Origin: Magnetococcales bacterium
GTDB lineage: Bacteria; Pseudomonadota; Magnetococcia; Magnetococcales; UBA8363
NCBI GenBank assembly: GCA_015228815.1
Contig: JADGCV010000023.1
Coordinates: forward strand, 1-64,000
Length of the DNA: 64,000 nucleotides
Reading direction: 5' to 3'
Shown here: in pieces, positions 10,488-52,738 of the stretch
How the letters are laid out: each line of letters begins with the position of its first letter
Position numbering within the stretch: the stretch's first letter is position 1
Made by a program: the position numbers and the translations under genes
The notes under the pieces: generated by a model
Told to the model about the DNA's origin: nothing
Seen by the model: the letters and a program-made list of their open reading frames with translations, nothing else
Database searches by the model: none

Positions 10488-10640
10488 ATATTGAAGAAGA
10501 AAAGGGGTCTGTGGGATTGCCCCAAGATTTTGACTTTAAACAAAATCAAAAACTGAGGAATGAAGCTTTTTATTTAAGTTCAACAACAAAATCAAAACCC
10601 TGGGGGCAATCCCCCAGACCCCTTTTTTTTTCAATAATCC
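10488..10640. repeat. Composite inverted repeat (dispersed palindromic element)
   Basis: Two arms of about 45 bp, each reading roughly ATTGAA...AAGGGGTCTGGGGG and its complement, are inverted around about 60 bp of A/T-rich DNA. The right arm (about 10593-10640) also folds on itself (CTGGGGG-caat-CCCCCAG). The arm and its flank AATAATCC-GAACCGGGG recur at 52676-52750. The gap 10250-10688 holds only this element and no gene. It may also terminate the pilT-flgO unit. Confidence 0.7.
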
Positions 10641-11873: not shown

Positions 11874-12929
11874 ATGGACATCACTCCCCATCTGCACCTG
11901 ATGATACAAAAAAAAGGTTCCGATCTTTTTTTCACCCCCGGAACCACCGTCAAAATGAAACTTGACGGCCAACTGGCCGCCATCGGCAAGGAAATTCTGA
12001 CCCCCGAGGTTGTCACCGCTGCGGTCATGGGAATCATGACCGACGAGCAAAAAAAGATATTCGCCGAAAATCTGGAGGTCGATTTTGCCATCGCATTGGA
12101 CGACAAAGGGCGTTTCCGGGTCAATGCCTTTCGCCAGAAGGGTCATCCCGCCATGGTGTTGCGCCTGATCTCCGCCGAGGTCCCCAACATCGATGCGTTG
12201 CATGTTCCCGAGATTCTCAAGGAACTGATCATGCACAAGCGGGGTCTGCTCCTCATGGTCGGGGGGACCGGCTCGGGAAAGTCCACAACCCTGGCCGCCA
12301 TGCTCGACCATCGCAACGCCAATGCCGGCGGCCATATCCTGACCATCGAGGACCCCGTCGAATATGTCCACCCCCACAAACGTTCCATCGTCAACCAGCG
12401 CGAACTGGGTCCCGACACCCGATCCTATGCCAATGCCCTGAAAAGCAGCCTGCGCGAGGCTCCCGACGTCATCCTCATCGGGGAAATTCGTACCCGGGAA
12501 ACCATGGAGGCGGCCCTCGAACTCGCCGGAACCGGGCATCTGGCCATTTCCACCCTGCACGCCAACAATGCCTATCAGGCCTTGACCCGGATCATCAACA
12601 TGTTTCCCCAGAGTCACCACAAACAATTATTCATGGATCTTTCCCTGTACCTGCGGGCGATCCTGTCGCAACGACTGATCCGCTCCAGGGATGGCAAACG
12701 GCGCGCCGCCGTCGAGGTCATGGTCAATACCCCCCTGATCGCCGAAAACATTCTCAAAGGCGATATCGAAGCGGTCAAAGAGGCCCTGGAAACAGGATCG
12801 GAAAAGGGAATGCAATCCTTCGATGCCGCCCTTCTCCAGCTTTATCGCGACGAAATCGTCACCCTGGAAGAGGCCCTGGCCAACGCCGATTCCAAAGCCA
12901 ACCTTGAAGCCCGGCTGCATTTTGGATGA
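11874..12929 (+). CDS. Third PilT/PilU-family ATPase
   Basis: 351 residues, similar throughout to the preceding PilU: KKGSDLFFTPGTTVKMKLDG, Walker A VGGTGSGKSTTLAAM, IEDPVEYVHPHKRS, Walker B DVILIGEIRTRETM and TGHLAISTLHANNAYQ, then VNTPLIAENIL. All core ATPase motifs are intact, so it should be active. It arose by duplication of pilU and diverged. The final codons (EARLHFG) lie inside a 97-bp direct repeat whose second copy sits 540 bp downstream. No strong ribosome site is seen before the ATG. Confidence 0.85.
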   Translation: MDITPHLHLMIQKKGSDLFFTPGTTVKMKLDGQLAAIGKEILTPEVVTAAVMGIMTDEQKKIFAENLEVDFAIALDDKGRFRVNAFRQKGHPAMVLRLISAEVPNIDALHVPEILKELIMHKRGLLLMVGGTGSGKSTTLAAMLDHRNANAGGHILTIEDPVEYVHPHKRSIVNQRELGPDTRSYANALKSSLREAPDVILIGEIRTRETMEAALELAGTGHLAISTLHANNAYQALTRIINMFPQSHHKQLFMDLSLYLRAILSQRLIRSRDGKRRAAVEVMVNTPLIAENILKGDIEAVKEALETGSEKGMQSFDAALLQLYRDEIVTLEEALANADSKANLEARLHFG

Positions 12930-12984
12930 TCCTTCATGGAAAAACTTCCAACCGATCCAATGTATCGGAAAATCGATCCACCAT
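12888..12984. repeat. Direct duplication, copy 1
   Basis: This stretch contains the last codons and stop of the third pilT-like gene and, on the other strand, a relic of the last residues of an XRE antitoxin (DRFSDTLDRLEVFP). It is nearly identical to 13427-13521, with one 3-nt deletion and a few substitutions. Confidence 0.9.
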
Positions 12985-12986
12985 AG

Positions 12987-13376
12987 TCAATGGAAGACGG
13001 CCTGCAGGGAATCGGCTTTGAAAATCTTCCGTGCCCAGACGTTGATGTCGTCCAATTTTGCCGATTCCACATGTTTTTGAACAGATTCCGGAATCAGGCC
13101 AAAACGCTCTTGGAGCAGTTCGAGCAGCATTTCAGCCTTGCCGTCATGACGGCCTTTCTCTTCGCCCTTCCGCATTCCAATTCGTTCCACGCTTGTGATA
13201 TAAGGCATCTTTTGGTTCTCCTCGAAGTTGGATAAATTGACCCAGAATTGGTTGTCCAACTCTTCTGGCAGGTTCAGCACCCAATCATCATCGCCGACCT
13301 GTTCCGCAGCCGAACCATCTTGCAGATGGGAATCCTGGTTTTGCGACACCAACTGGCGGTCCTTCAGGGGAATCAA
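12987..13376 (-). pseudogene. Rpn/PD-(D/E)XK nuclease-transposase family, C-terminal fragment
   Basis: 129 codons open from a TTG. The part MPYITSVERIGMRKGEEKGRHDGKAEMLLELLQERFG followed by SVQKHVESA and a C-terminal ARKIFKADSLQAVF is typical of the C-terminal third of Rpn recombination-promoting nucleases, which are about 300 residues long and carry the catalytic PD-(D/E)XK core at the N-terminus. That core is absent, so this is a remnant. It lies between the two copies of the 95-bp direct repeat, so it may have arrived with the rearrangement. Confidence 0.7.
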
Positions 13377-13385
13377 CCTCGTCGC

Positions 13386-13429
13386 TCGATGGATTTGATC
13401 TCCATGAGCGACAGGTCTTTATACAGGAT
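13386..13429 (-). pseudogene. hicA toxin C-terminal scrap
   Basis: On the minus strand this reads KDLSLMEIKSIER, the same as the C-terminal segment of the intact HicA at 14811-15017 (KDLSLMEIKSIEK). About 43 bp are almost identical at DNA level to 14839-14881, with one indel. No start or N-terminal half is present. Confidence 0.75.
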
Positions 13430-13521
13430 TCCAAAGCCAACCGAAGCCCGGCTGCATTTTGGATGATCCTTCATGGAAGAACTTCCAACCGATCCAATGT
13501 ATCGGGAAATCGGTCCACCAT
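13427..13521. repeat. Direct duplication, copy 2
   Basis: Second copy of the 12888-12984 segment. It includes a stranded copy of the pilT-paralogue 3' end (GAAGCCCGGCTGCATTTT) next to the true 3' end of the higA antitoxin on the opposite strand. Confidence 0.9.
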
Positions 13522-13782
13522 CATGATCAATGCCGCTGCGGTTGGTGGTGGTTTCGTTCTGCCCTGCTCCCAATTCTTCAAGGTCGCTTCCGAAATGCGA
13601 AGCCTTCTGGCAAAAACCCCTTGCGACATTTGTCCACGCACCTTGACAATGAAAGCTGGCTCCACCTCCACCGGTGGTTTGGGTGCCACACGGTAGTGCT
13701 TCAGGGTCACCTTGCCTTTCTGAAACTCGTTAATATCGTTAATACCGTCAACCAGTTCATCGAACAGTTTGCGCCTGACCAT
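13471..13782 (-). CDS. higA: HigA-type XRE antitoxin
   Basis: 103 residues with a helix-turn-helix in the C-terminal half: MSQGVFARRLRISEATLKNWEQGRTKPPPTAAALIMMV, the standard Cro/CI pattern of HigA2/NadS antitoxins. The N-terminal part (ELVDGINDINEFQKGKVTLK) matches the usual antitoxin lead. It follows the toxin gene and overlaps it by 26 bp, the inverted toxin-first order typical of higBA. The last codons lie in copy 2 of the 95-bp repeat. Intact in length. Confidence 0.85.
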   Translation of the reverse strand: MVRRKLFDELVDGINDINEFQKGKVTLKHYRVAPKPPVEVEPAFIVKVRGQMSQGVFARRLRISEATLKNWEQGRTKPPPTAAALIMMVDRFPDTLDRLEVLP

Positions 13783-14101
13783 GGGTCCATCCCCTCACAA
13801 GCTGATTCAAAGCCTTGATTTCATCTTTGGTGAGGTCTTCAACATCACCTTTCCAGTACAAGGTAAGCAGGTAAATCTCGCATTTGGCCACGTGGTGGAA
13901 ATAAATGATCCGAAGTCCACCACGTTTGCCAGTGCTGTGTTCTTTCGATTGCCACCTGACTTTCCTGATACCACCACTCCCTGGGATTTTATCCCAAAAT
14001 TTCGGGTTTTTTATCAACTCCTGCTGCAATTCAGAAAACAAACTGTCCGTTAAATATTTTGGTAAATGGCGTGTAAATACACGAGTTTCTATAAATTCTA
14101 C
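13757..14101 (-). CDS. higB: HigB2-type RelE-superfamily toxin lacking a normal start codon
   Basis: From 14101 the reading frame gives EFIETRVFTRHLPKYL, then LQQELIKNPKFWDKIPGSGGIRKVRW and KRGGLRIIYFHHVAKCEIYLLTLYWKGD, a full HigB2/RelE toxin (an mRNA interferase family) of about 114 residues. A strong ribosome site, AAAGGAGGT, lies at 14105-14113, but the codon where Met should be is GTA (14101-14099), preceded by ATT. The only conventional start, TTG at 14041, would delete strand beta1 and helix alpha1. The gene may be silenced or start at a non-canonical codon. It overlaps higA by 26 bp. Confidence 0.72.
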   Translation of the reverse strand, partial: VEFIETRVFTRHLPKYLTDSLFSELQQELIKNPKFWDKIPGSGGIRKVRWQSKEHSTGKRGGLRIIYFHHVAKCEIYLLTLYWKGDVEDLTKDEIKALNQLVRGWTHGQAQTVR

Positions 14102-14190
14102 AATACCTCCTTTATTGAAATCAGCAAATCCGTCAAATGGACCTGGAAAATGAAATCTTTAAAAATGTACACTAACAACGTATTTGTTAT

Positions 14191-14217
14191 ATGGATCTTC
14201 ATCACGGACCATCAACT
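14191..14217 (-). pseudogene. hicB antitoxin scrap in an otherwise gene-free stretch
   Basis: 27 bp are identical to 14624-14650 inside the intact hicB and encode the LMVRDEDP segment on the minus strand. The rest of 14112-14384 shows no gene I can support. It probably derives from a second, decayed hicAB locus. Confidence 0.65.
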
Positions 14218-14384
14218 AAGAATGAACAGCGATTTCAAAGCTGGAAGAACTGTCATGATAACGATCAAGGCCAACATCCAAGTGAAATTACATTACATTC
14301 AAACCCTCATGCCAAGGAGCAGGTTGCCATCCAGATTGTCACCCTCCCGACGAAACGATTGGCCGTGACGGCATAATCGCTCAA

Positions 14385-14798
14385 CTACCGTGCATCCAGC
14401 GCCCGCCGCGCCGCATCGGCCAGGAATCCGGAGCGGCTCATCCCCAGATCCTTGGCCGCATGGTCAATCCGCATGACCAGATTTTCCGCCATGGAAAGGT
14501 TGATGCGAATCCAACGCGCCGGAATTTCCACCCGAACCAGAAAACGGGTGATTTCCGGTTCGTCGTCCGGTTCCGGCTCAGGCAACACCTCATTCAACCG
14601 ATCCAACGGGGTTGGATCCGGCAATGGATCTTCATCACGGACCATCAACTCGATATGACCGGTCAATGCCTCTTCAGCATGCATGGCCGCATCATGAATG
14701 GAGTCACCATGAGTGGTGCATCCAGGGAGGTCTGGAAAAACTACGCCGTATCCATCTCCCCCACGGTACATCACTGCTGCGTAGTGTCTTATTTCCAT
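14385..14798 (-). CDS. hicB: HicB antitoxin
   Basis: 137 residues. The N-terminal domain HYAAVMYRGGDGYGVVFPDLPGCTTHGDSIHDAAMHAEEAL is the RNase-H-like HicB fold, with the usual FPDLPGC motif. The C-terminal LSMAENLVMRIDHAAKDLGMSRSGFLADAARRAL looks like a ribbon-helix-helix DNA-binding domain, so it should autoregulate. It neutralises the upstream HicA by blocking its active site. 12 bp separate it from hicA. Intact, unlike its neighbours. Confidence 0.92.
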   Translation of the reverse strand: MEIRHYAAVMYRGGDGYGVVFPDLPGCTTHGDSIHDAAMHAEEALTGHIELMVRDEDPLPDPTPLDRLNEVLPEPEPDDEPEITRFLVRVEIPARWIRINLSMAENLVMRIDHAAKDLGMSRSGFLADAARRALDAR

Positions 14799-14810
14799 TC
14801 ATTTTTCTCC

Positions 14811-15017
14811 TTATCGAATCTTCTGGATCGCTTGCTTCTCGATGGATTTGATCTCCATGAGCGACAGATCTTTTACAGGATGCCGAACCGTCACCTTACC
14901 CGGCAAAGTCGGGTGCTTGAAATGGTGATGATCGCCACGGACCGAATCGAGCAGCCAACCCGCCTTGTTCAAGACTTCGATCACTTCCCTGCTGCTCATG
15001 CTCTTCCCCATCGCCAT
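14811..15017 (-). CDS. hicA: HicA mRNA interferase toxin
   Basis: 68 residues. SSREVIEVLNKAGWLLDSVRGDHHHFKHPTLPGKVTVRHP contains the HicA double-stranded-RNA-binding-like fold with the catalytic His in GDHHHF. It cleaves mRNA when unbound by HicB. Two ATGs (15017 and 15011) are possible; the GGGAG upstream is better spaced for 15011. The gene order toxin then antitoxin is standard for hicAB. A relic of the same C-terminus lies at 13386-13429. Confidence 0.92.
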   Translation of the reverse strand: MAMGKSMSSREVIEVLNKAGWLLDSVRGDHHHFKHPTLPGKVTVRHPVKDLSLMEIKSIEKQAIQKIR

Positions 15018-15139
15018 CCACTCCCGTTGACCACTGTTTTACGTATACGATGCGCAATATAAGATCCATCGTCAAGAGGATTTTCAAGCGTTATCTACTC
15101 AAGAAACCTTGTATCTATTGACAGGAACAACCTCATACC

Positions 15140-15177
15140 AAAAAAAAACCGGATCCCATCCTGGCGACGGGATCCGG
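15140..15177 (-). terminator. Rho-independent terminator of groESL
   Basis: On the minus strand a 9-bp stem (CCGGATCCC pairing with GGGATCCGG) around an 11-nt loop is followed by nine T residues. It lies about 30 bp after the groEL stop. Confidence 0.88.
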
Positions 15178-15208
15178 GTCGATTCAACAAAGCGGATGCG
15201 ACGCGGAT

Positions 15209-16879
<1,671 letters not shown>

Positions 16880-52675: not shown

Positions 52676-52738
52676 ATTATTGAAAGAAAAAAGGGGTCTG
52701 GGGGATTAGCCCCCAGACCCCTTTTTTCTTTCAATAAT
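52676..52738. repeat. 29-bp perfect hairpin, dispersed extragenic element
   Basis: Starts ATTATTGAAAGAAAAAAGG, then GGTCTGGGGG, a 5-nt loop, and the exact complement: a perfect 29-bp stem. It resembles the right arm at about 10593-10640, including the flank CC-GAACCGGGG. With A and T runs on both sides it should also stop transcription in both directions, between the TAXI gene and the convergent HybE-like gene. Confidence 0.85.

Follow-up and report, generated by a model that had tools for sequence, protein, structure and literature searches.

Rpn nucleases belong to the toxin-antitoxin (TA) systems in which one gene encodes both partners. As described in the available text of PMC10327210, the only paper on RpnS as the antitoxin of Rpn that our literature search returned, the C-terminal domain of Rpn is also translated from an internal start as a short protein, RpnS, which blocks the toxic long protein. 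The same text describes this intragenic start for E. coli and C. difficile, reports that RpnS also occurs as a separate gene, annotated DUF4351, and that E. coli expresses such separate genes, and adds that the number of four-residue repeats varies, with one added repeat abolishing inhibition (PMC10327210). Rpn-like, HicAB and HigBA-like sequences lie together in the gap between pilU and groEL of a Magnetococcales bacterium, on the 64,000-nt stretch analysed here (the window; positions 1 to 64,000 of contig JADGCV010000023.1, assembly GCA_015228815.1). The patchwork in this gap is real and recent, and is best explained by the usual processes of TA acquisition, duplication on the spot and decay. 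We favour, as the fairly probable account, that the gap is an insertion hotspot in which horizontally acquired TA modules undergo duplication, deletion and erosion, with the toxin parts going before those of the antitoxin. The point that lifts the case is a complete RpnS frame inside an apparent nuclease scrap.

The three systems compare differently with their described counterparts. The window hicAB shows no notable difference from type II HicAB modules, with hicA followed by hicB on one strand and both families above cut-off. The higBA-like pair shares with HigBA-like modules the order of toxin first and antitoxin second and the XRE antitoxin, but its toxin falls below the RelE cut-off and has no canonical start. 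With the Rpn long/short genes, as far as the available text of PMC10327210 describes them, the Rpn piece has in common the internal ATG with a ribosome site, a candidate C-terminal DUF4351-type domain, the variable four-residue repeats and an RpnS that can stand as a gene of its own; it differs in that the nuclease domain is absent and that its nearest long protein, encoded on contig C31 of the same genome, is off by one repeat. The C31 protein itself differs from described Rpn in giving no Pfam match to the Rpn/transposase model. Orphan antitoxins are well known, and with those left after toxin loss the locus shares a kept antitoxin and a lost or damaged toxin; it differs by additionally holding an intragenic antitoxin domain.

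A gap whose content differs among congeners

The source genome (G000) is a 4.2-Mb draft of 96 contigs, and its relatives are other Magnetococcales, including seven congeners (G001-G007). The pilU-groEL gap is readable in three of these and its content differs in all three: G001 has 290 bp free of genes, G002 has an open reading frame (ORF) of 233 aa, and G006 has one for a chemotaxis receptor. These differences support the hotspot reading. The other four are not comparable: no groEL match lies within the 4 kb taken for G004 and G005 or the 3 kb taken for G003, and the G007 contig stops less than 700 bp from pilU. The comparison with relatives called for by the initial annotation thus found the arrangement of the window in none of the seven congeners, three of them with a readable gap. 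More widely, 37/41 genomes share at least a portion of the query and, among the matches listed, those outside the locus itself end close to or exactly at the edges of the modules (Rpn, transposase, higBA, hicAB, pilU, groEL). The higA relatives in G002, G004, G005 and G007 lie on contigs other than that of pilU. Repeated TA turnover next to a pilus operon had also been claimed; the turnover is supported, and its location beside pilus genes is probably a coincidence, since the gap merely follows pilU.

At the left of the gap stands a direct repeat with a 79-nt core (12906-12984 and 13443-13521; 96% identity, 3/79 substitutions), which extends leftwards across a 3-nt gap to 12890 and 13427, for a total of about 95 nt (12890-12984 and 13427-13521). 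In copy 1 the genuine pilU end (12890-12929) runs into 55 nt of the higA tail, whereas in copy 2 a pilU end of 40 nt precedes the whole of higA. Alignment confirms what had been described as a direct duplication of about 95 bp carrying the 3′ ends of a pilT paralogue and of an XRE antitoxin (higA), and the hicA scrap, the perfect 27-bp hicB scrap, the higBA-like pair and hicAB reported with it are all in place (Table 1). The similarities themselves survive alignment, at 96% over 79 nt, 35/36 and 27/27. Across 200 mononucleotide shuffles of positions 12000-16000 no exact repeat exceeds 15 nt, whereas exact repeats in the real sequence reach 27 nt and above, so that scraps and repeats are not due to chance. 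Extended over its junction, the hicA scrap matches the resident hicA at 47/51 positions, and where it meets the pilU end of copy 2 the two share a GGATTCC/GATTCC microhomology, a junction that looks as in short-homology joining.

The modules and their scraps appear to differ in age. Synonymous divergence (dS) from G007 is 0.30-0.31 for hicAB and 1.30 for pilU, and from G002 it is 0.48 for higA, 0.28 for higB and 0.77 for pilU. Because the TA genes are less diverged than pilU, they have moved between lineages; the TA modules seem to postdate the species splits, in line with horizontal transfer. Between the scraps and their local sources there are 3/79, 1/36 and 0/27 substitutions (0-4%), against 11% between hicAB and its G007 relative and 14% between higBA and that of G002, which makes the rearrangement more recent again; since these low values resemble one another, a single recent event at the locus can account for most scraps. 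An older association is hinted at by G007 (locus L024, G007:C78), where the pilU tail matches the higA-end scrap of window copy 1 at 21/24 positions and G007's own higA end at 15/24, the best of 20,000 random 60-mers reaching 17/24: higA may already have followed pilU when G000 and G007 split, or may have been exchanged.

A toxin can be lost ahead of its antitoxin but not vice versa, and toxin loss is harmless. The higB frame is open throughout, with no ATG, GTG or TTG near its beginning; a non-canonical ATT start is possible. Its match to PF06296 is weak (17.8 bits, E 0.0041; cut-off 27). Compared with G002, the ratio of non-synonymous to synonymous divergence (dN/dS) is 0.44 for higB and 0.09 for higA, and the higB relatives beside higA are frameshifted in G004, truncated in G005 and absent in G007. 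These ratios, the higB damage in congeners and the truncated rpn copies considered below fit a loss of toxin before antitoxin, and ordinary TA decay is the likeliest reason why antitoxin parts outlive toxin parts at this locus.

The RpnS frame

The Rpn piece corresponds to residues 222-317 of the 317-residue C31 protein, and the N-terminal nuclease domain is absent, including the region of residues 67-90 that we take to be the PD-(D/E)XK motif. The 73-codon frame within it begins at an ATG with a GAGGAG ribosome site nine bases upstream. Among 40 fetched rpn-related loci, 34 near-full-length copies cover the RpnS start site, and they keep the internal methionine in 34/34 and GAG-GAG in 32/34; in a set of 19 genes GAG-GAG occurs in 19/19, as against 5-68% GAG at 12 other conserved glutamate columns. 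Soon after the methionine, four aligned copies differ in having or lacking an RHDG-type four-residue unit, and larger arrays occur in others. This anatomy identifies the piece as an RpnS frame. The 'Rpn nuclease C-terminal fragment' of the initial annotation is therefore half retained: an Rpn-like C-terminal piece is present (12985-13286), but an rpnS frame standing on its own is the better reading of it.

Two arrangements in congeners deserve record. In G002 (locus L211, G002:C32:40150-41600), a stand-alone rpnS with its own GAGGAG and ATG begins at position 1081 of the locus, following a full-length rpn at a distance of about 37 bp, an order like that of rpnE-ypaA in E. coli. In G006 (G006:C88:1161-5925), five rpn matches follow one another on one strand within 4.8 kb.

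Truncated rpn copies were counted over 25 selected loci, several of them at contig ends, where pieces were not scored. The nuclease motif region is lost and RpnS kept in the window, in G000:C51, G000:C27, G004:C2, G005:C152 and G001:C173 (partial), and in an extra G002:C32 copy; internal deletion has had the same result in G000:C4 and G001:C103. Conversely, G007:C203 keeps the long part with no RpnS found, as G002:C76 perhaps does (weak), and RpnS is interrupted by a stop in G004:C78. Both parts are kept, though frameshifted or internally deleted, in G004:C200 and G006:C92, and the remaining selected loci include one full-length gene and DUF4351-only matches. These counts, in which a second DUF4351 family of these genomes could inflate the C-terminal-only matches, hint that truncated rpn copies in the genus may keep RpnS more often than the nuclease part.

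What the frame does now is a separate matter. A bold reading, which we hold to be unlikely, is that it is a working orphan antitoxin, freed by deletion of the nuclease and kept as a guard against resident or incoming Rpn nucleases; more generally, gene-within-gene TA systems would break preferentially one way in Magnetococcales, with the nuclease lost and RpnS kept. An even chance must be given to the plainer view that the piece is a young dead fragment whose frame and ribosome site are leftovers too recent to have decayed, few mutations being expected in 222 nt when the repeat copies are only about 4% apart. Against a dead fragment stand the truncated rpn copies, which in the selected set mostly lose the nuclease and keep RpnS, the G002 copy that stands alone close after an rpn gene, and the expression of separate rpnS genes in E. 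coli reported in the available text of PMC10327210. Several results, conversely, weigh against a functional frame. No sigma-70-like promoter was found for it, its DUF4351 (PF14261) match stays below the cut-off (20.4 bits, E 0.00056; cut-off 25), and a single-sequence fold predicts helices, RpnS being a dimerising helical bundle, but at low confidence (predicted local distance difference test, pLDDT, 59.5). Its dN/dS against C31 is 0.05, a value that stems largely from the time before truncation, and the dN/dS values as a whole chiefly reflect divergence of that earlier period. Finally, the window RpnS carries one four-residue repeat more than C31, the nearest long protein, and in view of the repeat result in PMC10327210 it may have no partner. 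A sequence search of solved structures with the 73-aa protein returned three weak matches only.

A course of events and its alternatives

For the locus as a whole, the hotspot account would run as follows. A higBA-like module would have inserted immediately after the stop codon of pilU, and a hicAB module between higBA and groEL, where it stands today. A local duplication reaching from the pilU 3′ end into hicA, and joined across 6-7 nt of microhomology, would then have given the second pilU-end/higA-end copy. Rpn and insertion sequence (IS) material may next have entered the left copy, and deletions would have stripped from that copy most of higBA and hicAB, along with the nuclease domain of Rpn and the greater part of the transposase. 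The survivors are uneven: a complete hicAB, an intact higA, a higB without the usual start and a whole RpnS frame, which, by analogy with the available text of PMC10327210, could make an antitoxin pairing with an Rpn long protein. Three points count against so simple a course. The order is one that we infer, no intermediate stage having been found; the 27-nt hicB and 57-nt CCDC90-like scraps require additional small events; and the hicA scrap is as close to the hicA of G011 (45/47) as to the resident gene, so that either a G011-like or the resident hicA would fit equally well as its exact source.

The initial annotation had instead proposed that a complete second hicAB stood in the gap and that its recent decay left the scraps of hicA and hicB, both of which are indeed near-identical to segments of the resident module. 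This is improbable. A search for a complete second hicAB found no near-identical one in the genome, the next HicB being 49% identical; the scraps, of 48 and 27 nt, lie on opposite sides of higBA and are both accounted for by partial local duplication; and the equal closeness to G011 does not single out a second local module. An assembly artefact, in which a strain mixture joined unrelated pieces, is very improbable even for a 96-contig draft whose closest named relative is a metagenome-assembled genome (MAG), since the junctions share only about 2-7 nt, which appears too short for joins by k-mer overlap, the repeat copies differ at three sites, and there are no N runs.

Other features of the gap and its surroundings

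Table 1. Features from pilU to groEL, in window coordinates
Feature	Position	Strand	Evidence
pilU, second PilT/PilU-family ATPase, intact	11874..12929	+	TIGR01420 418 bits, cut-off 319
higA 3′-end remnant, repeat copy 1	12930..12984	-	96% to copy 2 over 79 nt; 37/40 to G002 higA end
Rpn-like (DUF4351) 3′ piece with whole RpnS region and final ~26 codons of long-protein part	12985..13286	-	87% DNA identity to full-length rpn, G000:C31
Predicted stand-alone rpnS frame, 73 codons, no internal stop	12987..13208	-	ATG at 13208, GAGGAG upstream
IS3/IS481-like transposase gene fragment, ~codons 47-80	13287..13384	+	84-88% over matched segments; 98 nt
hicA scrap	13385..13432	-	13385-13420 = 35/36 to 14838-14873
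Repeat copy 2: pilU 3′ end 13427-13466 and higA 3′ end 13467-13521	13427..13521	.	Sequence match to copy 1
higA-like XRE antitoxin, 103 aa, intact	13471..13782	-	HTH_31 29.9 bits, cut-off 27
higB-like (RelE-like) toxin frame, open	13757..14098	-	GTA where G002 relative has ATG
hicB scrap, 27 nt	14191..14217	-	27/27 to 14624-14650
CCDC90-like gene 3′-end scrap, 57 nt	14224..14280	-	48/57 to G000:C33
hicB antitoxin, 137 aa, intact	14385..14798	-	PF15919 88.4 bits, cut-off 27
hicA toxin, 68 aa, intact	14811..15017	-	PF07927 54.1 bits, cut-off 27
groEL, right gap border	15209..16864	-	ORF; same right border in G001, G002, G006

Four features had escaped the initial annotation: the transposase piece, the CCDC90-like scrap, the lack of an ATG in higB and the complete RpnS frame. 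The transposase fragment has relatives in genes beside rpn at four loci (L032, L037, L013 and L015; 84-88%); a related transposase gene stands head to head with rpn in G000:C31 and beside rpn sequence in G026, G033 and G027. At the protein level the match is 71%, and NCBIfam IS3/IS481 remains below cut-off. The Rpn piece was joined to this fragment through the loss of about 700-800 bp. A reading of 13287-13384 as the Rpn N-terminus, or as filler, was ruled out, the sequence being transposase. The CCDC90-like scrap lies between higB and hicB, and its family assignment, at 27.3 bits, is below the cut-off of 33.5.

The PilU protein is 94% identical to its G002 counterpart, and its closest named match is that of the MAG Magnetococcales bacterium DCbin2 (90% identity). 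The ORF at the right border is presumably GroEL, a name given by inspection. A relative of hicB (68-70%) also occurs some 1 kb upstream of pilU in a genome from a different family of the order (locus L186, G043:C364, positions 136-531). Elsewhere in the window, a sequence of the type GGGGGCAATCCCCCAGACCCCTTTTTT is intergenic at 10602-10631 and at 52684-52730, with a similar form in G002 and G005, and is possibly a dispersed repeat. PADLOC defence-system models matched 0/6 proteins, and no RNA family reached its gathering score in the window. A literature search on Magnetococcales toxin-antitoxin systems turned up only a protist endosymbiont paper, unrelated to the locus.

Implications

The pilU-groEL gap offers a readable example of the coming and going of TA modules within one small space. 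The GAG-GAG kept before the internal ATG is codon-level evidence that the intragenic RpnS start holds in Magnetococcales too, and the locus suggests that annotated rpn 'scraps' merit checking for complete RpnS frames. If the frame described here does work as an orphan antitoxin, decayed Rpn loci would become immunity loci.

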